NCBI GenBank assembly: GCA_903904855.1
Contig: CAIVEH010000058.1
Span: forward strand, 1-64,000
DNA from: an uncultured Bacteroidota bacterium
GTDB taxonomy: Bacteria > Bacteroidota > Bacteroidia > Chitinophagales > Chitinophagaceae
Length of the DNA stretch: 64,000 bases
Reading direction: 5' to 3'
Of this stretch, positions 4,322 through 57,280 are shown piece by piece (position 1 is the stretch's first letter; every line of letters starts with the position of its first letter). Made by a program: the position numbers and the translations under genes. The notes under the pieces are model-generated. The model was given only the letters and a program-made list of their open reading frames with translations. It was not told the DNA's origin and did not search any database.

Positions 4322-5533
4322 ATGCCAGGAACTGAATTATTCGGCAGCGAAGAGCGCAAAGAAATCAATGACGTATTGGAAACAGGTATGCTGTTCCGGT
4401 ACAATAACGACCAGCAACGCAATGGTATCTGGAAGGCCCGCGAATTTGAGGCTGAAGTGAGAAAGATAACCGGCGCCAAGTATGCCCATGCAGTTTCGAA
4501 CGGCTCGGCTGCCATAGCTATTGCACTGGCTTCGGCAGGAATAGGTGCGGGAGATGAGGTGATCTGTCCGCCGTTTACGTTTATAGCCAGTATTGAGGCT
4601 GTTTTATGGATTGGCGCTATACCGGTTTTTGCTGAGATTGATGAGACTTTGTGCCTGAGCGCTGAGGGAATCAGAAATGCCATCACCCCTAAAACCAAGG
4701 GCGTATGCCTTGTGCATATGTGCGGCACCATGGCCGATATGGATGGCATTATGGCTGTGGTAAGGGAACATAACCTGATACTGGTAGAAGATGCAGGGCA
4801 GGCTTTCGGGGCTTCTTATAAGGGTACTTCGGTAGGGCTGTTTGGCAAGACAGGTAGTTTCTCTTTCGACTTTTTCAAGATAGCTACTGCGGGCGAAGGC
4901 GGTATCTTTATAACCAATGACGAGGCGACCTATAAAATTGCAGACGCCTACTCCGATCACGGTCATAACCATGTGGGTAATAACAGGGGTATGGAGCAGC
5001 ATCCTGTGCTGGGTTTCAACTATCGTATCAGCGAACTTCATGCTGCTGTGGGACTGGCCCAGACACGCAAAGTGCCGCATATACGCGAGGTGAACAATAA
5101 GCATAAAAAAGCCCTGACCGAAATACTCTCGCAAACTGAAGGAATAACTTTCGCTCACCTATCTGATCCGGATGGTGATTCGGCAACTTTCCTTAACTTT
5201 TTCCTGCCAGATACTGAGACTGCAAAACGCACAGTGGATGAGATGAACAAAGCAGGAATAGGCGGGTTCAACTACTGGTTCCTGAATATGTACCACTTCA
5301 TCAATCAGTGGGACCACCTGAAAACCATGCAGACCGCTTCTAAACTACCCGCACAGGTATTTGGTATGTCGCAGGATTATACCACACTTGAATTGCCAAA
5401 GTCGCAGGAAGTGATAGGCAGGCTGATATCGTTTGGTATCCGCTGTACCTGGACAGATGAAGATGTTGTGGCGCTGGCGAATAATATTGCAACTTGTGCA
5501 AAGAAAGCAATGCAGGTTGCTGTAATGGCTTAA
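4322..5533 (+). CDS. kdnA: DegT/DnrJ/EryC1 aminotransferase, KdnA-like (Kdo8N synthesis)
   Basis: A PLP-dependent sugar aminotransferase of 403 residues. The PLP-binding Lys is in SFDFFKIATAGEGG and the cofactor-binding Asp in LVEDAGQA. The opening MPGTELFGSEE and the FAEIDETLCLS and HVGNNRGMEQHP segments look very like KdnA of Shewanella oneidensis as I remember it. KdnA transfers an amino group from glutamate to the 8-aldehyde of oxidised Kdo to give 8-amino-3,8-dideoxy-manno-octulosonate. The next gene is a KdnB-like dehydrogenase and kdsA, a kdsC-like gene and kdsB follow, which supports this over a generic sugar aminotransferase. The ATG at 4322 is chosen because of the promoter box at 4296. 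Confidence 0.8.
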   Translation: MPGTELFGSEERKEINDVLETGMLFRYNNDQQRNGIWKAREFEAEVRKITGAKYAHAVSNGSAAIAIALASAGIGAGDEVICPPFTFIASIEAVLWIGAIPVFAEIDETLCLSAEGIRNAITPKTKGVCLVHMCGTMADMDGIMAVVREHNLILVEDAGQAFGASYKGTSVGLFGKTGSFSFDFFKIATAGEGGIFITNDEATYKIADAYSDHGHNHVGNNRGMEQHPVLGFNYRISELHAAVGLAQTRKVPHIREVNNKHKKALTEILSQTEGITFAHLSDPDGDSATFLNFFLPDTETAKRTVDEMNKAGIGGFNYWFLNMYHFINQWDHLKTMQTASKLPAQVFGMSQDYTTLELPKSQEVIGRLISFGIRCTWTDEDVVALANNIATCAKKAMQVAVMA

Positions 5534-5910
5534 TAACAATGGCTTTTTACAAAAGAAGTTTTACCACTAAGGGCACGAGGGGAATCACGAAGGGCACAAA
5601 ATTTTATGGATCGATGAGGTGATCGGGGGCACAAAGTTAGTTTTAGGAAAAGTGATTTTTATCCTGTTTTAGGGAACAAAATTAACTAAAGAGTTCAGGA
5701 AACATAGCCCACGGTTTCAACCGTGGGAAAAAAGATAAACAGATGAATTATAACCGTTTCAACGGTTTATTGTTCGCAGGTAAACGGTTGAAACCGTTGT
5801 GTTAATAATGTATTTTTCGCACCCACGGTTGAAACCGTGGGCTATGTAAATAGAATAATTTTTTGGTAAATGAAATTGCCATTTATAGTTTAATTTTTTA
5901 TTCAGGATAC
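5534..5910. other. Long gap inside the Kdo block, mostly a REP-like element
   Basis: No gene is seen. The first half holds 'ccactaagggcacgagg...cacgaagggcacaaa', similar to common degraded Bacteroidota intergenic repeats. The second half is the palindromic element at 5702-5847. Confidence 0.6.
5702..5847. repeat. Composite palindromic REP-like element (family 1)
   Basis: Four short palindromes are nested in one large inverted repeat. The outer arms are a perfect 26-bp inverted pair, acatagcccacggtttcaac... at 5702-5727 and its exact complement at 5822-5847. Each arm is itself a hairpin (CCCACGGTTnnAACCGTGGG). Inner palindromes AACCGTTTCAACGGTT (5752-5767) and AACGGTTGAAACCGTT (5783-5798) lie between them. 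The same words flank the RAYT transposase at 13266 and recur at 57210, so this is a mobilised copy of that family. Confidence 0.9.
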
Positions 5911-6990
5911 ATGCATAAGAATTTCAAGAACATAGATAAGGTTGTTTTCGGCAGGGGCAGCTTCTCGGAGATGGAGGGCATACTGGCTGAGAAACGCAAT
6001 GACAATGACAAGTTCTTTCTTTTTGTAGTTGATAAATATTTTGAAGGAAAGGAACTTGCGAAACGCATACCCGCTGCAACCAATGATGTGGTGCGGTTTA
6101 TAGACGTTGATCCGCATGAGCCGACTACCGATCAGATTGATAGTCTGCGGGATGAAATTTTAGCTGGTCATGGCTTGCCTGCTGGAGTAATTGGCATAGG
6201 CGGTGGCAGCATTATGGATATTGCCAAGGCAGTATCGCTGATGTTTACCAATGAGGGCTCATCTACCCTATACCAAGGATTGAACCTGATCAAAAAACCG
6301 GGTATCTATCACCTGGGGGTACCTACCATTTCAGGTACAGGGGCTGAAGTATCTATGACAGCAGTACTGACCGGGCCAGTAAAAAAACTGGGCCTAAAAT
6401 GCGACTGGACTGTTTTCAACCAGGTAATCTTAGATCCTGAGTTAATCGCTTCTGTACCTGTTGACAAATGGCTGTATACGGGTATGGATACTTACATTCA
6501 CTGTATAGAATCGGAAAACGGCATTAAGAACAACGCCTATAGCCATGCCTATGCTGAACAAGCATTGAAACTTTGCCGGGAGATTTACCTGGGCGATAAT
6601 GCAGGACAGACAGCAGAGAATGATGATAAACTGATGGTGGCCTCTATGATGGGCGGGCTGAGCCTTACCTATTCGGAAGTAGGTGTTTGTCATGCAATGT
6701 CGTACGGGTTGTCAAAGATATTCGGAGAGAAACATTGCTATGCCAACTGTCTGGTATTTCAGCACCTGGATGAATTTTATGGCGAAGGTGTTACAGAATT
6801 GAAGCAGATGCTGGTAAAGCACAATATTACTTTGCCACAGGGCCTGAGCAAAAACTGGAGCGATGCCGAAATAACTGCGATGGCTGAAGTAGCCTACAAC
6901 CTGCCGTTTATGTGGCATCATGCAATTGGTGATGATTGGAAGGAAAAAGTGAATATTGATTTCATAAAGGATTTGTATAAAAGACTTTAA
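5911..6990 (+). CDS. kdnB: Iron/zinc-type alcohol dehydrogenase, KdnB-like (Kdo 8-oxidase)
   Basis: A group III (metal-dependent) alcohol dehydrogenase of 359 residues. The NAD-binding GIGGGSIMDIAKA motif lies near residue 97. Metal ligands can be assigned to the Asp and His in MDTYIHCIES, the His in GVCHAMSY and the His in GEKHCYANC. The opening HKNFKNIDKVVFGRGSF is typical of KdnB, which oxidises C8 of Kdo with NAD in Shewanella so that KdnA can aminate it. The ATG at 5911 (MHKNFKN) is preferred; the ORF-track start at 5863 is a TTG adding an unrelated hydrophobic stretch. It lies 61 bp upstream of kdsA. A different sugar-alcohol substrate cannot be excluded from sequence alone. Confidence 0.8.
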   Translation: MHKNFKNIDKVVFGRGSFSEMEGILAEKRNDNDKFFLFVVDKYFEGKELAKRIPAATNDVVRFIDVDPHEPTTDQIDSLRDEILAGHGLPAGVIGIGGGSIMDIAKAVSLMFTNEGSSTLYQGLNLIKKPGIYHLGVPTISGTGAEVSMTAVLTGPVKKLGLKCDWTVFNQVILDPELIASVPVDKWLYTGMDTYIHCIESENGIKNNAYSHAYAEQALKLCREIYLGDNAGQTAENDDKLMVASMMGGLSLTYSEVGVCHAMSYGLSKIFGEKHCYANCLVFQHLDEFYGEGVTELKQMLVKHNITLPQGLSKNWSDAEITAMAEVAYNLPFMWHHAIGDDWKEKVNIDFIKDLYKRL

Positions 6991-7000
6991 TTAATAACTT

Positions 7001-7033
7001 AAGTGTGCCACACCTTTGAGGTATGGCACACTT
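7001..7033. repeat. Inverted repeat in the kdnB-kdsA gap
   Basis: A perfect 10-bp inverted pair, aagtgtgcca (7001-7010) and tggcacactt (7024-7033), with a 13-base loop ending 18 bp before the kdsA ATG. It could be an RNA hairpin within the operon or a small dispersed repeat. Similar wording (ggtgtggcacacctgtgc) occurs near 62.78 kb. It lacks the T-run expected of a terminator. Confidence 0.6.
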
Positions 7034-7051
7034 CCGGATAAAAAATTTATT

Positions 7052-7888
7052 ATGAGTGCAAAAAAAGTAATGGTTGGCGATATAACCTGCGGTGCAGATG
7101 AATTGTTTCTCATCTCCGGCCCATGTGTTATAGAAGATGAAATGATAATGATGAAAACGGCTGAAAAGCTGAAGGAAGTGAGCGCAAAGCTCAACATTCC
7201 GATCATCTACAAATCATCCTTCCTGAAAGACAACCGCAGCAGCCTGAAGTATTATGATGGCCCCGGACTTGTGGAGGGTATGAAAATACTGGCCAAAATC
7301 AAAGAGCAATTCGGGTTTACCTTGCTTACCGACATCCATTATCCCGATCATGCTGCTCCTGTAGCTGAGGTATGCGATGTGCTGCAGATACCTGCTTACC
7401 TCTGTATGCAATCTGGATTGATGGTTGCTGCCGCCAAAACAGGCAAGGTTGTCAACATAAAGCATGGCCAGTTTCTGGCACCAGATAATATGAAGCACCC
7501 TGTTGCTAAATGCATTGAGTCGGGCAATGATCAGATCATTCTTACTGAGCGGGGCTACACTATGGGCTATAACGACCTGGTGGTGGATCCACGCAGCTTT
7601 TATCATATGGCACAGATAGGTTACCCTGTTGTCTTCGATATTACCCATGCAATCCGAAAATACGGTATACCCAGCGCTGATGCTAAAGGCGGTGCAAGGG
7701 AATTTTTACCAGTATTGAGCCGGGCAGGTGTGGCATCGGGTGTAGATGGTATTTTCATTGAAACCCACCCTGAACCTGAGAAGGCCCTTTGCGATGCAGC
7801 AAGCCAGTTGAGTGTGTATGCGCTGGAAGAATTTTTGAAACCTTTGCTGGAGTTACATGCTATAGAGGTTAAGTATAGAGGTAAATAA
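7052..7888 (+). CDS. kdsA: 3-deoxy-8-phosphooctulonate synthase
   Basis: Condenses phosphoenolpyruvate with D-arabinose 5-phosphate to give Kdo 8-phosphate. The family signatures are clear: FLISGPCVIED near the N-terminus, YKSSFLKDNRSS (PEP and Ara5P binding), LLTDIHYP, VNIKHGQFLAP, and the C-terminal FIETHPEPEKALCDAASQL. Length 278 is normal. The ATG at 7052 is used (MSAKKVMVGD); the upstream ATG at 7016 lies in the loop of the inverted repeat. The Cys-less LLTDIHYP region and other details do not let me decide between the metal-dependent and metal-independent type. Confidence 0.95.
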   Translation: MSAKKVMVGDITCGADELFLISGPCVIEDEMIMMKTAEKLKEVSAKLNIPIIYKSSFLKDNRSSLKYYDGPGLVEGMKILAKIKEQFGFTLLTDIHYPDHAAPVAEVCDVLQIPAYLCMQSGLMVAAAKTGKVVNIKHGQFLAPDNMKHPVAKCIESGNDQIILTERGYTMGYNDLVVDPRSFYHMAQIGYPVVFDITHAIRKYGIPSADAKGGAREFLPVLSRAGVASGVDGIFIETHPEPEKALCDAASQLSVYALEEFLKPLLELHAIEVKYRGK

Positions 7889-7933
7889 CTATTTTTACAA
7901 AAAATCGGTCAATTAAAAAATTAAACAAGCAAT

Positions 7934-8947
7934 ATGGAATTATATCTTGATTCGGCAAACCTGAAAGAAATTGAAGAAGGCTTCAAATTAGGTTTTCTTG
8001 ATGGTTTGACCACCACACCTACATTTATGGTGCGCGAAGGCATTATGGATGTGGACAGCACAATTGTGAAACTGTCGAAAATGGTGCCGGTGCTGCAGAT
8101 TGAAGCGCTGGGCAATACGGCAGAGGATGTGGTAAAAGAAGCCCACCGCCAGCTGGACCTTGGTCTTGATCCTAAAAAGACGGTGTTTAAAATACCGGTT
8201 TCTCTTGAAGGACTTCGTGCATGTAATATGCTGCGCAAGCAAGACCTTATGGTGAATGTGCACCTGGTATATACGCTACAGCAGGCCTATATGGCTATGC
8301 ATGCCGGGGCCAGCTATGTATGCCCACTGGTGGGCCGCCTGCAGGACCAGGGGCACGATGCTCTGGCATTGGTACAGCAGTGCGTTGAGGCTGTACATCA
8401 TTATGGTTATGATTCAAAAATCATGTTCAGCTCGGTACGTACTACAGAGCATGTGCGCAATGCAATCAATATAGGCGTGCATACCATTACCGTGCCGCTG
8501 AAAATACTGAAAGGACTCACTGAAAATAACTTTACAACCATAGGCACCGAACAGTTCCTGAGCGATACCAGGCTCATGACCGTGAAAGTGAAGGAAGCAA
8601 TCAACGGACTGAATCCATTGGTAAGTGAAAACTCCAGCCTAAAGGATGCCATTGTAAAAATGACCGAATTTGGTTTTGGTTGTATTACCGTTACCAACGA
8701 TGATGGCGACATTAAAGGTGTATTTACCGATGGCGACCTGAGACGTTTATTGCAGAAAGATGGTGAGCATATACTGGATAAGAAAATAGGCAGCCTTGAG
8801 TTTAAGTCTCCTATCAGTATAGATGCCAATGCGCTGCTTAATGATGCCAATGCAATTTTCAAGAAGATGAATGTAGATACCATACTGGTAACTGATAATG
8901 GCAAGCCTGCAGGTATGCTGGATATTCAGGACCTTAAAAAATACTAG
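7934..8947 (+). CDS. Fructose-6-phosphate aldolase/transaldolase-like domain fused to KdsD-type CBS pair
   Basis: Residues 1-215 form a small transaldolase/FSA-type barrel. It opens with MELYLD exactly as E. coli fructose-6-phosphate aldolase does and keeps the Schiff-base Lys at residue 86 (TVFKIPVSLEGL). Residues 220-337 are two CBS domains; GVFTDGDLRRLL is the hallmark of the CBS part of KdsD/GutQ arabinose-5-phosphate isomerases. The usual KdsD SIS (isomerase) domain is thus absent and an aldolase fold takes its place. The gene sits directly between kdsA, which needs arabinose 5-phosphate, and a kdsC-like gene. FSA enzymes are known to be able to form D-arabinose 5-phosphate from glycolaldehyde and glyceraldehyde 3-phosphate, so I infer, without proof, a role in supplying that precursor. 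Thr28 and a Leu replace the FSA residues Asn28 and Tyr131, so the chemistry may differ. Confidence 0.85.
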   Translation: MELYLDSANLKEIEEGFKLGFLDGLTTTPTFMVREGIMDVDSTIVKLSKMVPVLQIEALGNTAEDVVKEAHRQLDLGLDPKKTVFKIPVSLEGLRACNMLRKQDLMVNVHLVYTLQQAYMAMHAGASYVCPLVGRLQDQGHDALALVQQCVEAVHHYGYDSKIMFSSVRTTEHVRNAINIGVHTITVPLKILKGLTENNFTTIGTEQFLSDTRLMTVKVKEAINGLNPLVSENSSLKDAIVKMTEFGFGCITVTNDDGDIKGVFTDGDLRRLLQKDGEHILDKKIGSLEFKSPISIDANALLNDANAIFKKMNVDTILVTDNGKPAGMLDIQDLKKY

Positions 8948-8971
8948 AAGTCAGCAGCTTAATAATATTGA

Positions 8972-9682
8972 ATGAATATTACCAATCCGGAACAGATAAA
9001 GAGTTTTTTCAAGGGGAGTTTCCTGGCCAGTCCGGAAACTCTTCTTGCTAAATTACATCACATAAAAGCATTTGTCTTCGACTGGGATGGGGTATTTAAT
9101 GATGGTTTTAAAGATGGTGGTGGATCCAGCCCATTTAATGAAATTGACTCAATGGGCATAAATATGATGCGCTTTAATCATTTTCTGCGAAAGGGAGAAA
9201 ACCCTGTAATGGCCATTATTTCAGGTGAAAAAAACTCTGCTGCACTGGCATTATCGGCAAGGGAGCATTTCCATTCTGTTTATTCGGGAATAAAAAACAA
9301 AAAAGACGCACTGCTGCATTTTTGCACAGCTCATAACATCAAGCCTGAAGAAACCGTTTTCTTCTTTGATGATGTGCTGGATCTTTCGTTAGCGCCCATT
9401 TGCGGTATGCGCATAATGGTGGGCAGGGATTCCAACCCTTTATTCAATAACCTGGTTCAGGTGAATGAAATGGCCGACTATATTACCGCAAATGATGGTG
9501 GCCACAATGCCCTGCGCGAAGCCGCAGAATTAATTATCGGTATAACCGGCAGGTATAACAATACCATTATGCAGCGTGTGGCCTGGTCCGACAACTACCA
9601 GCATTATATTACCGAGCGTAATTCTATTACTACAAAATACTTTACCCATTCCGGAACTGCAATAACTGAACAAATAATCTGA
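8972..9682 (+). CDS. KdsC-like HAD phosphatase (Kdo-8-phosphate phosphatase)
   Basis: A HAD-superfamily hydrolase expected to remove phosphate from Kdo 8-phosphate. Motif I is FDWDGVFNDG (the DxDGVxTDG signature of KdsC), motif II is IISGEK, motif III is the Lys of GIKNKKDAL and motif IV is FFFDDVLDLS. The end (GGHNALREAAELII) matches the KdsC 'GGxGAVRE' segment. At 236 residues it is about 60 longer than typical KdsC, with extra N- and C-terminal extensions. It lies 24 bp after the transaldolase-CBS gene and its stop overlaps the kdsB start (TGATG). An alternative is a phosphatase for another nonulosonate, but the context favours Kdo. Confidence 0.82.
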   Translation: MNITNPEQIKSFFKGSFLASPETLLAKLHHIKAFVFDWDGVFNDGFKDGGGSSPFNEIDSMGINMMRFNHFLRKGENPVMAIISGEKNSAALALSAREHFHSVYSGIKNKKDALLHFCTAHNIKPEETVFFFDDVLDLSLAPICGMRIMVGRDSNPLFNNLVQVNEMADYITANDGGHNALREAAELIIGITGRYNNTIMQRVAWSDNYQHYITERNSITTKYFTHSGTAITEQII

Positions 9683-10425
9683 TGATAGCTGGTATTATTC
9701 CTGCGAGGTACGCCTCTACCCGTTTTCCCGGTAAATCGCTCCTGGATATCAGGGGTAAATCAATGATTCAAAGGGTTTATGAAGAAGCATCAAAAAGCAA
9801 ATCGCTTGACACGCTTGTTGTGGCTACTGATGATGAACGGATTCTGAAACATGTACACTCATTCGGGGGAAAGGCAGTAATGACCGGCCTCAACCACCCA
9901 AGCGGCACTGACCGTTGCCTGGAAGCATTGCTGCAACTGGAAGGCGATTACCAATATGTAATTAATATTCAGGGCGACGAGCCATTTATTAATCCAGCGC
10001 AGATAGATGAACTGGCAGCCATTCTGAAAGATGGCACTGTGGAACTGGCTACCCAGATGATACCGGTTAGCACGCACGAAGAGCTGTTTGATATGGGCGA
10101 GGTAAAAATAGTGCTCAATGATAAAATGGAGGCGCTTTATTTCAGCCGTATGGTGATACCTTATATTAAAGGAGTAGCGCAAACCGAATGGCATCAGCAC
10201 TTCACCTACTACCGCCATGTGGGTATGTATGCCTACCGGAAGGATATACTTGAAAAAATAACCAGGCTCCCAGTGTCATCACTGGAGCAGGCCGAATCGC
10301 TGGAGCAACTGCGCTGGGTGGAGCATGGCTATAAAATAAAATGCGCCATAACCAGGTTCGAAAGCCATTGCATAGATACTCCCGGCGATGTGGAAAAAGT
10401 AATGCGGAGAATGGGATTGGAATAA
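9682..10425 (+). CDS. kdsB: 3-deoxy-manno-octulosonate cytidylyltransferase (CMP-Kdo or CMP-Kdo8N synthetase)
   Basis: Activates Kdo (or Kdo8N) with CTP for transfer to lipid A. The CTP-binding opening IIPARYASTRFPGKSL, the ATDDERI motif and NIQGDEPFI are diagnostic. Length 247 is normal. The start codon overlaps the stop of the preceding kdsC-like gene, so the two are translationally coupled. Given the kdnA- and kdnB-like genes upstream, the natural substrate may be the 8-amino sugar, as for the Shewanella enzyme. Substrate choice cannot be read from the sequence. Confidence 0.95.
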   Translation: MIAGIIPARYASTRFPGKSLLDIRGKSMIQRVYEEASKSKSLDTLVVATDDERILKHVHSFGGKAVMTGLNHPSGTDRCLEALLQLEGDYQYVINIQGDEPFINPAQIDELAAILKDGTVELATQMIPVSTHEELFDMGEVKIVLNDKMEALYFSRMVIPYIKGVAQTEWHQHFTYYRHVGMYAYRKDILEKITRLPVSSLEQAESLEQLRWVEHGYKIKCAITRFESHCIDTPGDVEKVMRRMGLE

Positions 10426-12950: not shown

Positions 12951-13163
12951 CATAGCCCACGGTTTTAACCGTGGGAAAAATGATACTAGATGCTATGTAA
13001 CCGTTTCAACGGTTTATTGTCTCGCAATAGGCTAAAAGTATATAGGGTGAATTCAAACCATATGGCAAATGGGTTCAACTAAAATCCGCCAATTATTAAA
13101 CCGTTGAAACGGTTAGAATACTTTTATCTTTATTGATCCCACGGTTGAAACCGTGAGCTATGT
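12951..13163. repeat. REP-like palindromic element flanking the RAYT gene, left copy (family 1)
   Basis: Same architecture as the element at 5702: an outer arm catagcccacggttttaacc at the left, an outer arm ending in accgtgagctatgt at the right, and inner palindromes AACCGTTTCAACGGTT (about 12999-13014) and AACCGTTGAAACGGTT (about 13099-13114). It fills most of the 350-bp gap between aroA and the transposase, and no gene is seen in that gap. Confidence 0.85.
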
Positions 13164-13265
13164 ATTTTTACATTCAGAGACACAAGGAACTATGAAAATT
13201 ATCTTATTAAAAAAGTGAATCAAGCACATTTTCGGCTTAATTTTATTATTCTGAATTAAATAAAT

Positions 13266-13697
13266 ATGCCTCATTCATACAATAAAATTTGGGTTCATGC
13301 AATTTTTGCTACAAAGGAGCGACAACTGCTGATTAAATCTGAAAGTGAACAAAAAATTTACGATCACTTGAAGGATCAATTGATTGAAATCGGATGCCCA
13401 GTAAGGATAATAAATGGTATGCCAGAACACATTCATTTGTTATTTTTAATGAATCCTCAAAAAGCAATTGCAGACGTACTAAAACAAATAAAAGGCAACA
13501 CATCTCATTGGATAAATGAGAATAACATTGTTGTTGAAAAATTTGCCTGGCAGACTGGTTATGCAGCATATTCGGTTAGTGAATCCCGGCTCCAAATTGT
13601 TTACAAATATATTTTACAACAAAAAACTCATCATGCTAAACAAACTTTTGCTGAAGAATATGACGAGTTTATTAAGTTTCATGGATTAAAAATATAA
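13266..13697 (+). CDS. REP-associated Y1 tyrosine transposase (IS200/IS605-like, RAYT)
   Basis: A 143-residue single-strand DNA transposase of the Y1_Tnp (HUH) family. The HUH motif is MPEHIHLLFLMNP, and the catalytic Tyr probably lies in IVYKYILQQKTHHAKQTF, with the conserved EEYDEFIKFHGL tail. It is flanked on both sides by palindromic family-1 elements (12951-13163 and 13699-13776), the arrangement expected of a REP-associated transposase that mobilises those repeats. It has inserted between aroA and aroC, in the same orientation. The reading frame is intact, so the enzyme may still be active. No IS605 TnpB or IscB partner is present. Confidence 0.92.
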   Translation: MPHSYNKIWVHAIFATKERQLLIKSESEQKIYDHLKDQLIEIGCPVRIINGMPEHIHLLFLMNPQKAIADVLKQIKGNTSHWINENNIVVEKFAWQTGYAAYSVSESRLQIVYKYILQQKTHHAKQTFAEEYDEFIKFHGLKI

Positions 13698-13698
13698 C

Positions 13699-13776
13699 CA
13701 TAGCCTAAATTTAAACGGTTAAAACCGTTCTAGAATACGGCATTTAAAAACCCACGGTTGAAACCGTGGGCTATGT
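13699..13776. repeat. REP-like palindromic element flanking the RAYT gene, right copy (family 1)
   Basis: Begins catagcc directly after the transposase stop, contains aacggttaaaaccgtt as an inner palindrome and ends with the outer hairpin cccacggttgaaaccgtggg followed by ctatgt. It is a shorter version of the 5702 element. Confidence 0.85.
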
Positions 13777-20916: not shown

Positions 20917-20951
20917 CACCGCTTTACCATTTGGCTTTAATCAGTTGCTAT

Positions 20952-22277
20952 ATGAAAAACACCGGAAGTAATAGAGTTGAGGCTGATGGTTCAAAGGGTA
21001 ATTCATTACCGCGCCGCTTGCTGATGCTCTTTCTTTACGATTTTTTCCTTTCCCTTTATGTAATTGCAATAAAGGTTTATGGCTTATTCAACGGGAAGGC
21101 AGGCAAATGGATTAGCGGAAGAAAAGACTGGGAACAAAACTATACCCAGCTACTTAAAACTGTGGAAAAGAGAATCTGGTTTCATTGTTCATCGGTAGGT
21201 GAATATGAGCAGGCAAAACCAGTTATTGAAGCTTTAAAACAGCAATATCCTGATCATAAAATAGCTGTAACTTTTTTCTCCCCTTCAGGCTTCGAGGCCT
21301 GCAAGAAGACACCGCTTGTTGACTACATACTTTATCTTCCTCCCGACAATAATGCTAATGCCCAAACTTTCATTAATCTGATTCATCCGGCGTTAGCTGT
21401 CTTTGTAAAATACGAATTCTGGTATCACTATCTCGCCGAACTGAAAAAGCAAGGAATACCCACAATAATTGTTTCTGGGGCTTTCAGGCCTGAGCAGCCT
21501 TTCTTTAAGTGGTATGGTGGCCTGTTCCGGGATATGCTCACCTGCTTTGATTTCTTTTTCCTGCAGGATGAACAATCTTCTCTTGATCTGAATAAAATCG
21601 GCATCGATACAAACATTACCATCTCCGGCGATACCCGCTACGACAGGGTTTCAGCTATTGCTAAAAGCATCACACCTATATCAGCTATCGAACAGTTCAA
21701 AGGCTCAAACAAAGTACTAATTGCCGGCAGCAGCTGGCCTGCAGATGAAGAGGTAATTCTTGCCTGCCTGCCCATCCTCCCTGCCAACTGGAAATTAATC
21801 ATTGCACCTCATGAAATCGACGAACCGCACATACGCAAAATACAAAAGCTCTTCGGGAGCCAATCCATCCTTTTTTCCGAGCTGGATGACGAATACACCG
21901 GCTTCGATAAGCGGATACTGATCATTAACAATATTGGTATGCTCTCCCGCCTTTATGCCTGTGGCGATATAGCTTTTGTAGGCGGCGGATTTTATAAGGG
22001 AGGCATCCACAACATATTGGAGCCAGCAGTCTTTGGAGTACCTGTTATTTTCGGTCCGGTTTATCAAAAATTTGTTGAGGCAAAAGAAATGGCTGCATTG
22101 GATATTGTCTTTCCTGTAAAAGACAAAGGCGAATGCGCCATCAGACTTAAAAAGCTCATCAATGATGATGCTTACCATCAATCTATTCATAATTCTTTAC
22201 TGGCTTTCATGAAACAACATACCGGTGCAACCAATACCATAATGGATGTGATAAAAGCAAAGAAATGGCTGGAATAA
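20952..22277 (+). CDS. waaA: 3-deoxy-D-manno-octulosonic-acid transferase (Kdo transferase)
   Basis: A membrane-associated GT30 glycosyltransferase that moves Kdo, or here perhaps Kdo8N, from its CMP form onto lipid IVA. The N-terminus has one membrane segment (LLMLFLYDFFLSLYVIAIKVYG). Family blocks are WFHCSSVGEYEQAKP (the acceptor-side Glu), FVKYEFWYHYL, ISGDTRYDRV, IIAPHEIDEPHI and FVGGGFYKGGIHNILEPAVFG. Length 441 is slightly longer than usual. The ATG at 20952 is preferred over 20931 because family starts are short and basic before the membrane segment. It completes the Kdo pathway encoded 11-16 kb upstream. Confidence 0.93.
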   Translation: MKNTGSNRVEADGSKGNSLPRRLLMLFLYDFFLSLYVIAIKVYGLFNGKAGKWISGRKDWEQNYTQLLKTVEKRIWFHCSSVGEYEQAKPVIEALKQQYPDHKIAVTFFSPSGFEACKKTPLVDYILYLPPDNNANAQTFINLIHPALAVFVKYEFWYHYLAELKKQGIPTIIVSGAFRPEQPFFKWYGGLFRDMLTCFDFFFLQDEQSSLDLNKIGIDTNITISGDTRYDRVSAIAKSITPISAIEQFKGSNKVLIAGSSWPADEEVILACLPILPANWKLIIAPHEIDEPHIRKIQKLFGSQSILFSELDDEYTGFDKRILIINNIGMLSRLYACGDIAFVGGGFYKGGIHNILEPAVFGVPVIFGPVYQKFVEAKEMAALDIVFPVKDKGECAIRLKKLINDDAYHQSIHNSLLAFMKQHTGATNTIMDVIKAKKWLE

Positions 22278-22384: not shown

Positions 22385-22639
22385 ATGGATGCCAAGGTAA
22401 CTTTAAGTTTTGATGCAAACATTATAGATAAGGCCAAGAACTATGCCGAAAGTCAGGGCATAAGCCTCAGCAGGCTTACCGAAATCCTGTTGCGCAAAGC
22501 CACTCATGGAGGATATCGGGAAATTGAAGATATTCCTATAGCCAGTTGGGTTACCACATTATCCGAAGGTGAATCTGAATATATCACTCCACGGAAGCGG
22601 AAAGACACCAAAAAGGAATATTATAACAGTAAAAAATGA
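22385..22639 (+). CDS. DUF6364-type antitoxin (ribbon-helix-helix)
   Basis: An 84-residue protein with the opening KVTLSFDANIIDKAKNYAESQGISLSRL, a typical ribbon-helix-helix DNA-binding pattern (a beta strand followed by two helices) as found in DUF6364 antitoxins. The basic C-terminal tail (PRKRKDTKKEYYNSKK) probably contacts the toxin. The stop overlaps the toxin start (ATGA), so the pair is co-translated. It is expected to repress its own operon with the toxin. Confidence 0.83.
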   Translation: MDAKVTLSFDANIIDKAKNYAESQGISLSRLTEILLRKATHGGYREIEDIPIASWVTTLSEGESEYITPRKRKDTKKEYYNSKK

Positions 22640-23052
22640 GGTTCTTTTTAGACGCCAATATCCTGATATCTGTACTTAATAAGGAGTTTCCTCAATATAC
22701 CTATACATCCAGGATACTTAGTATGACTGAGGAAAATAAATCAGTTACCCTGGTAACAACAAATATTTGCCTTGCCATTGCTTTTTATTTTGCAGAAAAA
22801 AAACATGGTGAAGTTCAGGCAAAAAAGAAAATCGGACTTTTAGTTGAGCATCTTGATATAGCTGATTGTGGTAACAGGGAAGCTATTTCAGTTATGCAAA
22901 ACAAGAAAATACACGATTTTGAAGATGGCCTCCAATATTATGCAGCTTTACACTCCAACTGCAACTGCATTGTAAGCAATGATCAGGACGACTTTTATTT
23001 TTCAGATCTTCCCGTTTATAATGCAGAACGCTTTTTCAGAAAGTATGTGTGA
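22636..23052 (+). CDS. PIN-domain toxin (VapC-like ribonuclease)
   Basis: A 138-residue PIN-domain protein. The catalytic acidic residues can be placed in MRFFLDANILISVLN (first Asp), TTNICLAIAFYFAEKK region (Glu/Ala variation; family often has Glu here), IHDFEDGLQYYAA (Asp-Phe-Glu-Asp) and IVSNDQDDF (last Asp). It belongs to the PIN subgroup usually paired with DUF6364 antitoxins. Unlike the broken pair at 2.7-3.0 kb, this one is complete. A bidirectional terminator follows at 23139. Confidence 0.87.
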   Translation: MRFFLDANILISVLNKEFPQYTYTSRILSMTEENKSVTLVTTNICLAIAFYFAEKKHGEVQAKKKIGLLVEHLDIADCGNREAISVMQNKKIHDFEDGLQYYAALHSNCNCIVSNDQDDFYFSDLPVYNAERFFRKYV

Positions 23053-38891: not shown

Positions 38892-41800
38892 TTATTGCTC
38901 AACAACCATATGGAATACTTTGCTCTCAGTAGCTGATTGCACATTTACCATATACATGCCATTGGCAAGACCGCTGTTCATCTGTACTTTCTCATCAATA
39001 ACACCATTATGTGCTATCACCTTGCTGGTGTAAATAACCTGGCCAAGCACATTGGTTACTTCTATTGATATTTCCTGATCATCTATTGAAGAAAGCGTAC
39101 CCTTGATTGTAAATGTTCCGTTATTAGGATTTGGAACCAGGCGTATATCGCCGGTCATTGTGCTAACTGGTTTCACACTTACGTTGCTTGAATGAACGGT
39201 AAATGAACTTCCACCTATCAGGTAACCACATGCATTACTGTCAGATACCTGGCAAGCTACTACATCCTGATCGTTAAGCGTGGTAGAGTACAGAACCGAA
39301 GTACTAGCACCAGTAAGTTCTACACCATTAATAGACCACCTGTAAACCGGAGCAGCGCCTGGATTAGTAACAGTAGCTGTAAGTGTGTCATTGTAAAGCA
39401 CTGTACCCACATTAGCACCTGAATTCAGGCTGATTGTAACCACTGGAGCCAGACTTGTCTGTGTATTGAAAGTAAGATTGTTACTCAATACTGTAGATGC
39501 AGTTACGCACTGATAGCTGCTGGTCATAGTACAGAACAGTATATCGCCATCTGTTGGTATGTAGGTAAATGTATTACCGCTGCCTACTGGTACACCACCC
39601 AGTTTCCATGAATAAGAAGGAGTAGTACCACCATTAACCGGTGTAGCAGTTATATCAACTGTTGTACCCTGACATACTGTTGTTGAAGGTGAAGCTGCAA
39701 TCGTTACTGAAGGAGTAACATCAGGTCTTACAGTCATCGTTACAGAACCATTGGCAGTAGCTGGCAGCGGACAAGGTTCGTTACTTGTCATCATTACACT
39801 GATAACATTGCCGTTTGATGGAACGAATGTATAAGAACTGCCTGTTGCTCCTGTTAAGATACCATTCACAGACCATGAGAATGCTGGAAATGCACCCCCA
39901 TTAACTGTAAGTGCAGAGAAGGTAACAGTTGTACCTGTACATACTGTATCACCCACACCTGTAGCAACTGTTACAGAAGGAATAACAGAAGGCATGGTAG
40001 TTACTACAGCTGTACCTGTCATGTTTGAAGAACATGTAGTAGTCGAATTAACAGCCATTACACTGTAAGTACCCGCAGTATGTAGTCCGAAGCTGATAGC
40101 AGCGCCTGTACCGGCAACAGATCCCGGAATCAGGGAAGTACCATTGTATAACTGATAATTAACACCTGCATCAGATCCACTCAATCCTACAGGCAAACCA
40201 GCTGTACTTGCGCAATAAGCGCCACCACCTGTTACTGCATATACTGAAGGTAATGAGCTTATAGAAACAACCACACTACCTGCCATTGCATTTGTACAAC
40301 CGGTAGCTGTATTTGATGCACTTACTGTATAAGTACCTGCAGCAGTTACCAGGCCAAAATTAATAGAGCTTCCTGATCCTGAAACCGGAGCCAACACATT
40401 TACAGTACCCAGTTTCAACTGATAAGTAATACCAGATGCTGTACCGCTTAAGCCAACATTAACACCTGTTCCACCTGTGCAGTAATTACCACCACCTGTT
40501 ACAGTAAAGGCAGCAGGTAACGCATTAACTGATACAGTAACTGAACCTGTCATTGGAGCGCTGCAAGATGTAACCGGATTAGTAGCTAATATAGTATAGG
40601 TGCCTGGTGTAGTCTGAGGACCAAAATCAAGTGAACTGCTATACGAATGTGTAGTTCCTACAGCTACACCATCAAGGTATAACTGATAGAAACAAGGAGA
40701 ATCCATGGCGCTGATGCCAACATGAGAACCAGCAGAACCTGCGCAGAAACTTCCACCACCTACAACAGTATAAGCTGTTGGCAACGGATTAACTGCTACC
40801 GATGCACTGCTGAGCATATTGTTGGTACAGCCGGTTGATGAATTTGTAGCTACAACTGTAAAGGTACCGCCAGTTGTCTGAGGACCAAAATTCAGTGAAT
40901 AGCCTGTACCTGCCATTGTAGCTACAGATGAAGAACCTCTCCACAACTGGTAGTTAACACCGGCATCAGATCCGCTCTGGAACACTGGTACACCTGCACC
41001 GCCTGCGCAGAAACCGCCGCCACCTGAAACTGTGTAAAGCGCTGGTAAAGAATTAATAACTACAGATGGAGTATCGTTCATAGTACTGTAGCATGTTGTT
41101 GCAATGCTGGTAGCAACTACTTTATAAGTACCTGCTGATGTCTGCAGACCATAATTGATAGTGAAACCAGTACCTGATACCGAACCACCCACTGGTACTG
41201 CACCGAGATACAACTGATATTGAGTACCAACATCAGATCCGTTCAGAGAAATGTTAACACCTGAACCACCCAGGCAATAACCTGTTGAGCTTGCAATTAC
41301 ATTGTAAGATGTAGGTAAAGGACTGATTCCTATCGATGGGCTGCCTACCATGTTAATGCTGCAACCTGTAGATGCATCTGTTGCTGTTACGAAATAAGTA
41401 CCAACAACTGATTGATATCCGAAATCAAGGCCTGTACCGGTACCTGCTGTTGGAGCGCCCAGCGGCAGAATACCACGATACAATTGGTAATTGATTCCCA
41501 TTGTAGAATTGCTGAGTCCGATATGCTGACCAAGGCCGCCCGGGCAATAATTGCCACCACCGGTAACTGTATCAACAATTGGCAACGGATTAACAATAAT
41601 GCTAACACTGCCGGTCATATTGCTTTGGCAGAGTGTAGTAGTATTGGTACCGGTAACAGTATATGTTCCTGCTGCCGACTGTAAGCCAAAGTTAATTGCA
41701 CCTGCACCACCTGCCTGAGGTAAGCCGGTTGCAATACCGTCTTTATATAACTGGTAGCTGATTCCTGATGCAGAACCTGAAAGGCCAACATTCAGGCCAG

Positions 41801-44800
41801 TACCGCCTGCGCAATAAGAACCGCCTCCTGTAACTACATAAGTAGAAGCTGGTAATGGATTAACAGATACCGATGTGCTGCCAGCCATTGTAGAAGTACA
41901 TGAAGTAACACTATTGGTTGCTACTACTGTATATGTTCCTGGTGCTGTCTGGTTGCCGAAATTCAACAATCCTGTTACACCGCCAAATGGAGCGCCAACT
42001 GGTGAACCTCCGAGTTTCAGCTGGTAGTTGATACCTGCATCTGAAGAAGAAAGCGTAACCGGAACTCCTGCACCGCCTGCACAGAATGAACCGCCACCAC
42101 CTACATTATAAACCAATGGAAGTGCGTTAACAGATATGGACTGGCTTCCGCTCATTGAATTGATACAGCCGGTAACTGAGTTGGTACCGATAACAGTATA
42201 TGCACCGCCACCTGTAAATGTGCCAAAGCTCAATGCGCTGCCAGTACCTGCCAATGCCGGACCAGTCATTACACTACCCAGATATAACTGATAGCTGATA
42301 GTAAGATCCGAATTGCTCAATCCTACAGGAAGACCTGCGCCACCTGCGCAATAGCTGCCACCACCGGTAACATTATAAGCAGTTGGTAAAGGATTCAGTG
42401 ATACGGTTACACTGCTTGTCATGTTATTAGAGCAACCGGTAAGCATACTTGTTGCAATAACTGTATAAGTACCAAGTGCAGTTTTATTACCAAAATCAAG
42501 TGGAGAACCTGTACCAGACATAGGTAAACCGGATGTTGAAGCACCAACATAAAGTTGATAATTAACCCCTGAAACTGAACCGCTGAGTTGCACATCAGAT
42601 CCTGTTCCACCTGTGCAATAGCCACCACCACCTGTTATTGTAAAGGCTGTTGGCAATGCATAGTTGGAAACTACAGCAGTTCCTGTCATATTGCTGCTGC
42701 ATGTTGTTGTTGGATTTACAGCCTTAACGGTATAAGTACCGATGCCGGTTTGTAATCCAAATGTTACAGGAACACCTGTTGTTCCTGCAACTGAAGAACC
42801 TACAGGCGCACCTGAAAGGTAAAGTTGATAATTAATACCAGTGCTGCCGGTATCTACTCCTATCACTCTGCCTGTTCCGCCTGGGCAATAAGCGCCACCA
42901 CCTGTTACAGTATGAATTGAAGGAAGTGGATTAATTGAGATCAGCACACTGCCCGTCATTGTTGATGTACAACCTGAAGAAGTCCTTGTTGCAACTACAG
43001 TATAGATACCAGTACCAGTCTGGAGGCCAAAGCTGATTGCGCTTCCTGTTCCGGTTACTGATGGCAGACCGGTAGAAATACCTGCTAAATAAAGCTGGTA
43101 ACTTACACCTGTATCTGAGCTGCTTAATCCAACAGAAGTACCTGAAGTACCTGTACAATAGCCACCACCACCTGTTACGGTATAAAGCGCTGGAGCCAAT
43201 AATTTATTGATAATTGCGCTGCCGGTCATTGTAGCAGTACATCCGGTAGCAGTACTTGTAGCACGGGCAATAAATGTATCGCTTAAGCCTACAGAAATTG
43301 TTCCGAAGCTGATAACACCACCTGTACCCGCAACTGCAGCACCTATTAAAGTACCATCATTAGGATCAAGTAACTGATAATTTACGCCTGTTACCGATCC
43401 GCTGAGGCCTACCGGTACACCGGCAAGTCCTGCACAATAGTTACCGCCGCCTGTAACTGTAAATACAGCAGGTGCAGTAGTAATAGATACGGTAGCAGCG
43501 CCTGTCATAGTATTGGTACAGCCGGTTACAATATTGGTACCTATAACGGTATAAGTACCTGTAGAAGCCTGAATACCCATATCAAGTGAAGAACCTGTTC
43601 CTGTTCCTAAAACAGCTGAACCGGTAGATACACCTAGATTATACAACTGGTAGGAAACGCCTGCCTGAGAATTGCTTATAGTAATATCTACACCAGTGCC
43701 GCCTGCGCAATAGCTGCCACCCGAAGAAACAGTATATGCTGTTGGCAGAGGATTGGTTGTTACAGTCACAAAGGCTGGTACCATTGGATTAGTACAAAGT
43801 GTGGCAATGTTTGTTGCAACAACATTATAGTTACCTGCTGTCAGTGGTCCGAAAACAAGCGGAGCACCTGTACCATTAACCGGTGTACCTATGGCTAATG
43901 ATGTAGTAGTATTATATAACTGATATCTAATACCAGCGTCTGAATTATTAAGTGTCAATGTAACTCCTGTTCCACCTAAGCAGTAAGTAGAAACTGTGGT
44001 TGGTGCGAGTGTATATTGGGTAGGCAAAAGAGCAACACTAACTGTAGCGCTACCAATCATATTGCTTACGCAATTGGTTGTAGTATTGGTAGCTGTAACT
44101 GTATACGTTCCTGCTGTATTTTGTAGCGGGAACGTAATAGTTGATGGAACTGTAGCAAGTCCGGCTATAGTAGACTGAAGTGTTGCTCCGTTGAATAACT
44201 TGTAGTTATAACCTGAATAGGTTGTATCTACAGCAATTGCAACTCCTGTACCTCCGATACCACATACTACGCCACCACTACCTGTGGTAATATGAGTAAC
44301 TGGTGGCAATGGATTAATTGTAACCGTAACACTGGTTCCGGTTACACTGGTACAACCTGTAACAGTATTGGTAGCTCTTACAGTATATGTTCCTGCTGCA
44401 AGCACTGAACCTAAAGGTAACAGAGCGCCGGTACCTGTAAAGGCAGTACCAAAATTTGAACCTCCTAGCAGTATCTGATAGCTGGTTAATGTCTGGGATC
44501 CGCTCAAAGTCAGTGGAACACCAGTACCACCTGCGCAATAAGCGCTTGATGTACCTGTAAAGCCAAGGGTAAATACTGTAGGTGCCACACCGGCTGTAAC
44601 CGCTGCTGAGCCAAGCATGGTATTACTACATCCTGTAGTAGCATTCAATGCAGTAATTGTATAAGTAGCATTGGTAGTTAAAAGTCCGTAGCTGAGGGCC
44701 GAACCGGTAGTACCTGGTAAAGTAACCGAAGTTCCTCCTACCAGTGTATAATTCACACCAGTCTGAGAGTTACTTAAACCTACAGGAACGCCTGTACTAC

Positions 44801-47800
44801 CAGGACAGTTAATACCACCACCGGTAACTGTGTATGCTGTTGGCAATGGATTAACCAATATAACAGAAACGCCTGTCATATTATTAACACAACCTGTAGT
44901 GTTATTGGTTGCAACTACAGTATAATTACCACCGGCAGTCATCGTGCCGAAGGAAATGGCGCCGCCTGTTCCTGTTACCAGCGCTCCTGGCAGTAAAGTT
45001 CCATTCAGGTATAATTGATAACTGTATGAAGTTCCACCAGAAACTGGCTGTGAACTTGAGAGACCAACTGCAAAACCAGTGCCACCTGCACAATAAGCTC
45101 CGCCACCTGTCATGTTAAATGCTGTTGGAAGGACTGATAAAGCAACAGTTGCTGATCCGCCCATGGCTTGTGTGCAACCTGTAGTTGTATTGGTAGCTAC
45201 TGCTGTATAAGTAGTGGCTGTAGTCTGTATTCCAAATGATATTGGTGAACCTGTACCTGCTACCGGACTTCCTACAGCAGTACCACCATTCATTAATTGA
45301 TAACTGATTCCTACATCTGAACCACTTAAACCAACAGCAACACCGGTTGAACCTGCGCAATAAGCGCCGCCACCGGTAAGTGTATAAATATTAGGCAATG
45401 CATTAACTGTACCTGAAGTTGTTGCAATACAACCTGTAGGTAATGTATAAGTAAGGCTAACAGTTCCTGCTGCTACACCACTCATAATTCCTGTAAAGCC
45501 GCCAATAGTAGCTATTGCAGTATTGCTGCTGTTCCATGAACCGCCTGCAGAGGCATCTGAAAGTGTTGTTGATGAACCTACACAGACATTCAATGTACCT
45601 GTAATTGCTGCAGGTAATGGATTTACGGTAACAGGATATACAACATTACATCCGATAGGAGCTAAAGTATAAGATATTACAGTTGTACCTGGGGTAATTC
45701 CGGATACAACACCTGTTGTTGATATACTTCCGACAGCAGGCAGACTGCTTGTCCATGTACCACCTGAAGTACCATCTGCAAGCGCAGTAGTAAGGCCAAG
45801 ACAAACTGTTGGATTTCCTGTAATTACGGCAGGAGTTGGATAAACTGTAACTGTCTGTGTTACAAAACAACCTGCTGGTAATGTATAGGTAATAGTTACT
45901 GTACCTGCTGATACGCCTGTTACCACGCCTGTTGCAGAAACTACTGTGGCTATAGCAGTATTAGAACTTGTATATGAACCACCGGTTGTAGCATCGTTTA
46001 AAGTTGTACTAAGACCGGTACATACTGTAAATACACCGGTTATTGCTACTGGTTGTGGATTTACAGTTTCTACCATAGTTGTAAAGCAACTACCTGGAGC
46101 TGGTAAAGTGTAAGTAATTGTAGGAGTACCTACAGCCACACCTGCAACAACTCCCAGGCCGGAAATAGTAGCCAGTGAAGTGTTGCTGCTGCTCCATGAG
46201 CCGCCGCTTACACCGTCAGTTAGTGTAGTGGTAAGGCCTACACATACAGTATTTGAACCTGATATAGCTGCTGGTGATGGATAAACCGTTGTACCGGCAG
46301 TTATCAGACATGTTGTAGGCAATGTATAAGTAATCGTTGCTGTACCTGCTGTTACACCGCCCACAATTCCTGTTCCTGTACCTACAGTTGCAACTGCTGT
46401 GTTACTGCTGGTCCATGTTCCACCTGCGGTAGCATCAAACAATGTAGTTGTAGCTCCTGCACATACGGTAGCGATACCGGTAATTGCTGGTGGAATTGGG
46501 TTAACTGTTATCGGATAAGTTGTCAGACAGCCTGTTGGCAGTGTATAAGTAATAACAGGATTACCTGCTGCAACACCCGTTACAACACCGGTTAAAGCAA
46601 CAACGCTTCCAAGTGTGGCATTGCTGCTGCTCCATGTACCGCCTGTTGTAGCATCGGTCAATGAGGTGGTTAATAATACACACACACTGGCTGTACCCGT
46701 AATGGCCGCTGGTAATGGATTAACCGTGAATGGGAAAATTACAAAACAACCTGCTGGTAAAGTATAAGTGATATTACAACTACCGAAAGCAACACCGGTT
46801 ACTGTACCGGTTCCGGCACCCACTGTAGCAACAGCAGTATTGCTGCTTGTCCAGGTACCACCGGTAACCGTATTTGCCAATGTTGTGGTAAGACCTACGC
46901 ACACATTATTTGTTCCTGTTATAGCTGCTGCTACCGGATTAACGGTAACAGTATATGTTGTAAAGCAACCTGCCGGTAATGTATAAGTAATACTTACTGT
47001 ACCTGCTGCAACACCTGTTACAACACCGCCGGCAGATATTGTGGCAATAGCTGTATTACTGCTGGTCCATGTACCGCCGGTAGTTGCATCAGCCAGTGTA
47101 GTTGTTAAACCAACACATACTGTGGCAGTACCTGTAACAGCTGCAGGAGTAGGATTTACCGTAAATGATTCAGTAACATTACATCCTGCTGGAAGTGTAT
47201 ATGTCAGATTAGTAATACCGGCCAATACTCCGGTAACAATACCGGTACCGCCACCTATTGTAGCTACTGTAGGTGTTGAACTTGTCCATACACCACCTGC
47301 TGTAAGATCAATTGCAGTTATTGTAAGGCCTACGCAAACTGAAGCAGGACCTGTAATAGCAACCGGAGTTGGATTAACTGTTATATTAAAGGTAGCAAAG
47401 CAACCTGTAGTCAATGTATAAGTAATTGTTGGTGTACCTGCCGCGATACCATTTACGATACCTGATGATACGCCAACTGTAGCAATCAATGCATTGCTGC
47501 TAGACCAGTTACCACCACCCGTAGCATCGGCCAGTGTAATTGCTGAACCGGCACATACTGTTGTCAGTCCTGATATTGCAGCCGGGTTAGGATTAACCGT
47601 TACAGTTGCACTGATCGAACAGCCTGTTGGTAATGTATAAATAATATTTGCAGTTCCAAATGCAACACCGGTTACAACGCCTGTGCTTGCACCTACTGTT
47701 GCAACTCCCGGGGTAGAGGTAGTCCATGTACCACCTGTTGAAGTGTTAGCAAGTGTAGTAGTTGTGCCTGGGCATAAGAACATTGTTCCTGTAATAGATG

Positions 47801-57209: not shown

Positions 57210-57280
57210 CATAGCCCACGGTTTCAACCGTGGGCTTGTAATAATAGGCTTTACATAACGGTTTTAACCGTTTACAAGCA
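57210..57280. repeat. REP-like palindromic element (family 1, short)
   Basis: Starts catagcccacggtttcaacc, contains the CCCACGGTTTCAACCGTGGG hairpin and AACGGTTTTAACCGTT. Related to the elements at 5702 and 12951. Confidence 0.8.

Follow-up and report, generated by a model that had tools for sequence, protein, structure and literature searches.

Most Gram-negative bacteria cannot do without Kdo synthesis, the first step of which is usually credited to a single enzyme type, KdsD. For 8-amino-Kdo (Kdo8N), Gattis et al. in 2013 reportedly described a kdnA-kdnB-kdsB cluster in Shewanella oneidensis (work cited in PMC5125639). The sugar was called a hallmark of Shewanella in a 2019 structural study (PMC6357163). 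The locus analyzed here lies in a Bacteroidota genome (G000), within a stretch of 64,000 nt (the window), whose ORF list contains six co-oriented genes at 4322 to 10425 on the + strand, as the first-pass annotation had described; structure and family matches support the order that it proposed, kdnA, kdnB, kdsA, an aldolase-CBS gene (aldCBS), a kdsC-like gene, and kdsB. The locus resembles the S. oneidensis cluster in that KdnA and KdnB are orthologues by score, residues, and tree and KdsB is part of the cluster. Unlike in S. oneidensis, the kdn genes are joined to kdsA-aldCBS-kdsC-kdsB in a member of the Bacteroidota, KdsB is an ordinary-scoring KdsB, and KdsD is missing. The gene order is not due to chance, because the same cluster was found again in dozens of relatives. 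We think it probable that the cluster makes CMP-activated Kdo8N for the LPS inner core and that aldCBS replaces a lost KdsD, supplying arabinose 5-phosphate (A5P).

The product of kdnA (4322 to 5533, + strand), a putative 8-amino-3,8-dideoxy-octulosonate aminotransferase (EC 2.6.1.109) of the DegT/DnrJ/EryC1/StrS family, scores 429 bits against S. oneidensis KdnA (PDB 5k8b) and at most 178 bits against the next of all solved structures; it is 47% identical to the S. oneidensis enzyme over 388 aa, and the PLP lysine is kept (SFDFFK aligned to SFDSVK of 5k8b). The kdnB product (5911 to 6990, + strand), a putative Kdo C8-alcohol dehydrogenase/oxidase of the group III Fe-ADHs, scores 410 bits against S. 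oneidensis KdnB (PDB 5k8c), to which it is 52% identical over nearly the full length, with all four metal ligands (Asp, His, His, and His) conserved; among solved structures, the best non-KdnB chain reaches 96 bits. A further score of 400 bits is to 3rf7, whose deposition names it an iron-containing alcohol dehydrogenase and which we take to be a second Shewanella KdnB. On phylogenetic trees, KdnA groups with 5k8b apart from ArnB and KdnB groups with the Shewanella protein apart from FucO; ArnB and FucO are distant outgroups, and the score gap weighs more than the trees. The score gaps, the percent identities, the conserved catalytic residues, and the trees thus bear out the kdnA-like and kdnB-like calls of the first-pass annotation, and the phylogeny that it had asked for places the dehydrogenase and the aminotransferase with Shewanella KdnB and KdnA, not with enzymes for other sugars. 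As judged from sequence comparison, the relationship of kdnA and kdnB to the Shewanella genes is genuine. Because these calls hold, with catalytic residues kept, Kdo8N is the best prediction for the LPS of this genome; if present, it might alter the charge next to lipid A, as the first-pass annotation suggested.

Many other genomes carry kdn genes as well: within the family, 97 of 150 genomes, representing 72 of 103 genera, have kdnB, as do 22 of 297 genomes from a sample across the phylum. KdnB proteins fall into clade I, at least 70% identical to the KdnB of the window, whose genes adjoin kdnA ahead of kdsA, and clade II, about 40 to 55% identical to it, whose genes are near kdsB. Clade II includes a kdnA-kdsB-kdnB triplet in three genomes (G214, G281, and G438), plus a fourth (G117) on a partial locus, and kdnB without nearby kdnA in many Flavobacteriaceae-like and Chitinophagaceae genomes. 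Since many relatives have no kdnA near kdnB, kdnB alone is no proof of Kdo8N. In a scan of GTDB genomes, 490 relatives were found, and we used the best 80; nearly all of these are Bacteroidota by title, and they include Flavipsychrobacter and Taibaiella. Among these best 80 of 490, kdnA and kdnB occur at 44 loci, always as a pair. Of two isolates, Chitinophagaceae bacterium IBVUCB1 has kdnAB, and LGM1 has an aldCBS cluster with no kdnAB close by. One record (L129), titled an Azovibrio restrictus MAG, has a locus that resembles the others and may be mis-binned; the carrier group as a whole consists of soil and water Bacteroidota.

The DegT aminotransferases and the Fe-ADHs each form a large family, and the many Bacteroidota in which a KdnB homologue sits beside kdsB with no kdnA near might use it in another role; KdnA and KdnB could therefore act on a non-Kdo sugar, with no Kdo8N made. 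We consider this improbable, because the next solved members score 250 and 310 bits lower and because kdnA and kdnB cluster with kdsA, kdsC, and kdsB at most of the 44 loci that carry the pair.

kdsA (7016 to 7888, + strand; the start is likely ATG 7052) encodes a putative Kdo-8-phosphate synthase that exceeds the NF003543 and TIGR01362 cutoffs. The kdsC-like gene (8972 to 9682, + strand) encodes a divergent HAD phosphatase, the putative Kdo-8-phosphate phosphatase, which scores 56 bits against the NCBIfam KdsC model (cutoff, 208 bits); the HAD residues D37, D39, G85, K110, D133, D134, and D137 are shared with E. coli KdsC in 69 relatives. The kdsB product (9682 to 10425, + strand) exceeds several KdsB cutoffs, has KdsB relatives in the PDB, and is here probably a CMP-Kdo8N synthetase rather than a CMP-Kdo synthetase. 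No KdsB positions separated loci with kdnAB nearby from the other loci, in whose genomes kdnAB may sit elsewhere. A second KdsB, 38% identical, is encoded on another contig of the genome; either KdsB may activate Kdo or Kdo8N, and the LPS might therefore contain both sugars. The Kdo transferase gene waaA, which had been placed about 10 kb downstream, was found at 20931 to 22277 (+ strand), 10.5 kb past the cluster; its product matches Pfam Glycos_transf_N and, under the cutoff, the NCBIfam WaaA models. The 377-base gap between kdnA and kdnB contains palindromic repeats, CCACGGTT..AACCGTGG, at 5709 to 5840 (no strand assigned), with 7 matches against 0.04 expected in the whole window, and the six genes therefore need not share one transcript. 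No RNA families were matched in the window by Rfam.

One claim failed: the first-pass annotation had called the gene set complete, and KdsD, the A5P isomerase, is absent from the genome. The KdsD/KpsF model (SIS plus CBS domains) did not find KdsD in G000 even at an E value of ≤1e-3; its sole matches were the CBS pairs of aldCBS and of a second ORF of ∼517 aa, which is probably IMP dehydrogenase. aldCBS, which had been named without comment and looks like a KdsD replacement, sits between kdsA and kdsC, next to kdsC as KdsD is in E. coli. Like KdsD/KpsF, its product has a KdsD-like CBS pair, and it occurs where KdsD does not.

Among the 150 genomes of the family, 130 have KdsD and 14 have aldCBS. 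KdsD is absent from 12 of the 14 carriers and from 8 of the 136 noncarriers (Fisher p, 6e-11, a value that overstates independence, as most carriers are in one clade). In the genus sample, KdsD is found without aldCBS in three genomes (G003, G008, and G012), and nine others have a CBS protein of ∼340 to 370 aa and no KdsD. A 356-aa CBS match in G008 was considered as a second aldCBS and rejected; because its gene belongs to a sugar-acid cluster that includes a KdsB-like nucleotidyltransferase, we counted G008 as having KdsD without aldCBS. Of the 8 noncarriers without KdsD, one (G215) also has no KdsB, consistent with the lack of Kdo. Two others (G195 and G253) have KdsB and neither KdsD nor aldCBS; thus, they must either have another source of A5P or be incompletely assembled. 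Among the best 80 of the 490 relatives, a set of aldCBS carriers that partly overlaps the 150-genome survey and is not phylogenetically independent, KdsD scored over the cutoff in 5 (2/50 plus 3/30), which may reflect contamination or redundancy. Lone aldCBS carriers, e.g., L182, L188, and L191, have no KdsD and keep KdsB. Incompleteness cannot account for all KdsD absences, because the complete chromosome CP075895.1 (L141) has kdsA-aldCBS-kdsC-kdsB and no KdsD match.

Most carriers are Chitinophagaceae near Flavipsychrobacter and Taibaiella, and the pattern could be an accident of ancestry, a single KdsD loss and aldCBS gain that occurred in the common ancestor for unrelated reasons. This seems to us quite unlikely. 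aldCBS is present and KdsD absent in genomes from two other families (G392 of f28 and G432 of f30), and the opposite state is found within f30, where G492 carries kdnA-kdnB-kdsA-kdsC-kdsB without aldCBS and has KdsD elsewhere; both states also occur inside four tool-labeled genera (g1, g13, g72, and g85). A role of aldCBS in amination was dropped, as the gene is kept in carriers without kdnB. Three such genomes (G131, G226, and G135) have no kdnB yet contain kdsA-aldCBS-kdsC, with kdsB elsewhere, which ties aldCBS to Kdo rather than to amination.

aldCBS (7934 to 8947, + strand) encodes two domains. Residues 1 to 214 (7934 to 8575, + strand) form a transaldolase/FSA-type TIM barrel (Pfam TAL_FSA) with Schiff-base Lys86; the best PDB matches of this domain are 1vpx, 3s0c, and 3r8r, its identity to transaldolases is about one third, and a fold search with the structure model of the protein (pLDDT, 85.5; pTM, 0.59) agrees with a transaldolase barrel. 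The remainder (8576 to 8947, + strand) is a CBS pair that resembles the C-terminal CBS pair of KdsD, and we propose that it is a regulatory domain. Its best PDB and NCBIfam matches are arabinose 5-phosphate isomerases, and among the genomic CBS pairs compared it is closest to those of KdsD from G003, G008, and G012, of the same genus. On a tree of CBS pairs, aldCBS stands beside KdsD, not nested inside it, with moderate support. The TIGR00393 match covers the CBS pair only, and the SIS sugar isomerase domain is missing; in contrast to KdsD/KpsF, aldCBS has a transaldolase-fold domain in place of the SIS domain, implying different chemistry.

Like the FsaA/TalC family (E. coli FsaA; Thermoplasma acidophilum TAL, PDB 3s0c), aldCBS has a TIM barrel, a Schiff-base lysine, and the phosphate-binding Arg/Ser. 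Asp6, Glu57, Lys86, Asn108, Arg135, Ser167, and Arg169 are common to transaldolases and all 16 aligned carriers. Unlike in that family, the CBS pair is fused, the gene lies in a kds operon, and the pocket residues N28, T110, S130, and F132, which are N, T, S, and F in 28/28 TalC proteins from the order, are replaced by T, H, C, and L (N28T, T110H, S130C, and F132L) in 16/16 carriers. Gln59 and Tyr131 of FsaA are not kept, aldCBS having Glu57 and Leu132. T110H and F132L depart strongly from every characterized transaldolase or FSA pocket. From the established transaldolase mechanism, the kept residues serve Schiff base formation and phosphate-end binding and the changed residues serve contacts to the dihydroxyacetone end and the catalytic water. 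The pattern fits an enzyme that has kept a phosphorylated acceptor and would use a different, probably shorter donor. On its domains and residues, aldCBS is not to be filed as a KdsD, TalC, or FSA, because each of these assignments fails on a defining feature. We found no literature linking a transaldolase-CBS protein to Kdo.

The fold of aldCBS and its one-third identity to transaldolases would also suit an ordinary Kdo8N operon in which aldCBS serves the pentose phosphate pathway as a regulated housekeeping transaldolase and A5P comes from an unrecognized isomerase elsewhere, and the two genomes with KdsB and neither KdsD nor aldCBS point the same way. We regard this explanation as unlikely: a distinct TalC-like gene is present on contig C23 of the genome, the four replaced pocket residues are invariant in transaldolases and changed in every aligned carrier, and aldCBS swaps with KdsD, not with TalC.

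From the orthology, the residues, the gene order, and the absence of KdsD, all shown here, we infer every reaction of the pathway in which aldCBS replaces KdsD. KdsA and the KdsC-like phosphatase would yield Kdo, which KdnB is predicted to oxidize at C8; KdnA would then put an amino group on the oxidized C8, KdsB would activate Kdo8N, and WaaA would join the sugar to lipid A. KdsD, which converts ribulose 5-phosphate to arabinose 5-phosphate, would have been lost, with aldCBS in its stead. The latter may have arisen from a retooled transaldolase domain placed before a KdsD-type CBS pair, which probably controls the enzyme. We see roughly even chances that A5P is made by a class I (Schiff-base) aldolase instead of an SIS-type isomerase, the new enzyme having taken over from KdsD in several lineages of Bacteroidota.

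D-Arabinose 5-phosphate corresponds to D-fructose 6-phosphate lacking C1, and thus the transaldolase barrel, which forms the C3-C4 bond of fructose 6-phosphate, can also form the C2-C3 bond of A5P. In one route, the Schiff-base lysine would add glycolaldehyde to glyceraldehyde 3-phosphate, giving arabinose 5-phosphate. Free glycolaldehyde is scarce in cells, a point that weighs against simple aldol addition. In the other route, ribose 5-phosphate would be epimerized via the same intermediate by retro-aldol and aldol steps, with no need for free glycolaldehyde. E. coli FsaA in vitro converts glycolaldehyde and glyceraldehyde 3-phosphate to arabinose 5-phosphate only (PMC9947464), and it cleaves A5P with a KM of 0.65 mM and a kcat of 3.6 per s (PMC6900487). 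Epimerization of ribose 5-phosphate may be considered as an alternative because TalB F178Y, given the same substrate pair, makes both A5P and ribose 5-phosphate (PMC9947464).

The cluster appears to be a variant of the Kdo8N pathway, and aldCBS filling the gap left by KdsD suggests an unrecognized source of A5P. If true, the displacement of KdsD by a transaldolase-fold enzyme would mean that nature has a second way to make arabinose 5-phosphate, and aldCBS would be an arabinose 5-phosphate aldolase of natural origin, which groups that build synthetic pathways say is missing; an enzyme whose affinity for glycolaldehyde is much higher is called for (PMC9947464). The presence of kdnAB in Bacteroidota predicts that Kdo8N may occur there, outside Shewanella.

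Among the relatives, homologues of KdnB, the Kdo C8 oxidase, occur either close to kdsB or solitary in Flavobacteriaceae-like loci (L235-L238, L240, L241, and L246) and in seven others (L228-L231, L244, L245, and L247); kdnA is absent from the locus stretch in all of them. A frequent gene order at these loci is kdsB, HAD phosphatase, kdnB, acyltransferase. At four relatives' loci (L114, L115, L117, and L121), kdsB immediately follows aldCBS, the transaldolase-fold and CBS-pair gene, and no kdsC-like gene was found in these aldCBS-kdsB clusters. In L114, a close homologue (9563-9976) of the small PIN-domain-like protein that adjoins waaA in the window (22636-23052) is inserted between kdsA and aldCBS. 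Two genomes, G195 and G253, have KdsB and lack both KdsD and aldCBS, which may reflect a further arabinose 5-phosphate source or assembly gaps.

The window also contains a single open reading frame of 5046 residues (38892-54032, minus strand) and 7 copies of the palindrome CCACGGTT..AACCGTGG versus 0.04 expected (12957-13769, 5709-5840, and 57216-57233). Three of the seven flank an IS200-like Y1 transposase (13266-13697), and together they look like a REP/RAYT pair.

The source genome, G000, encodes a second KdsB (contig C118; locus L222, 3578-4318), with 38% identity to the window KdsB. This 9.5-kb contig matches the window contig in G+C; it is possibly contamination, or else, possibly, Kdo and Kdo8N are activated separately in this organism.
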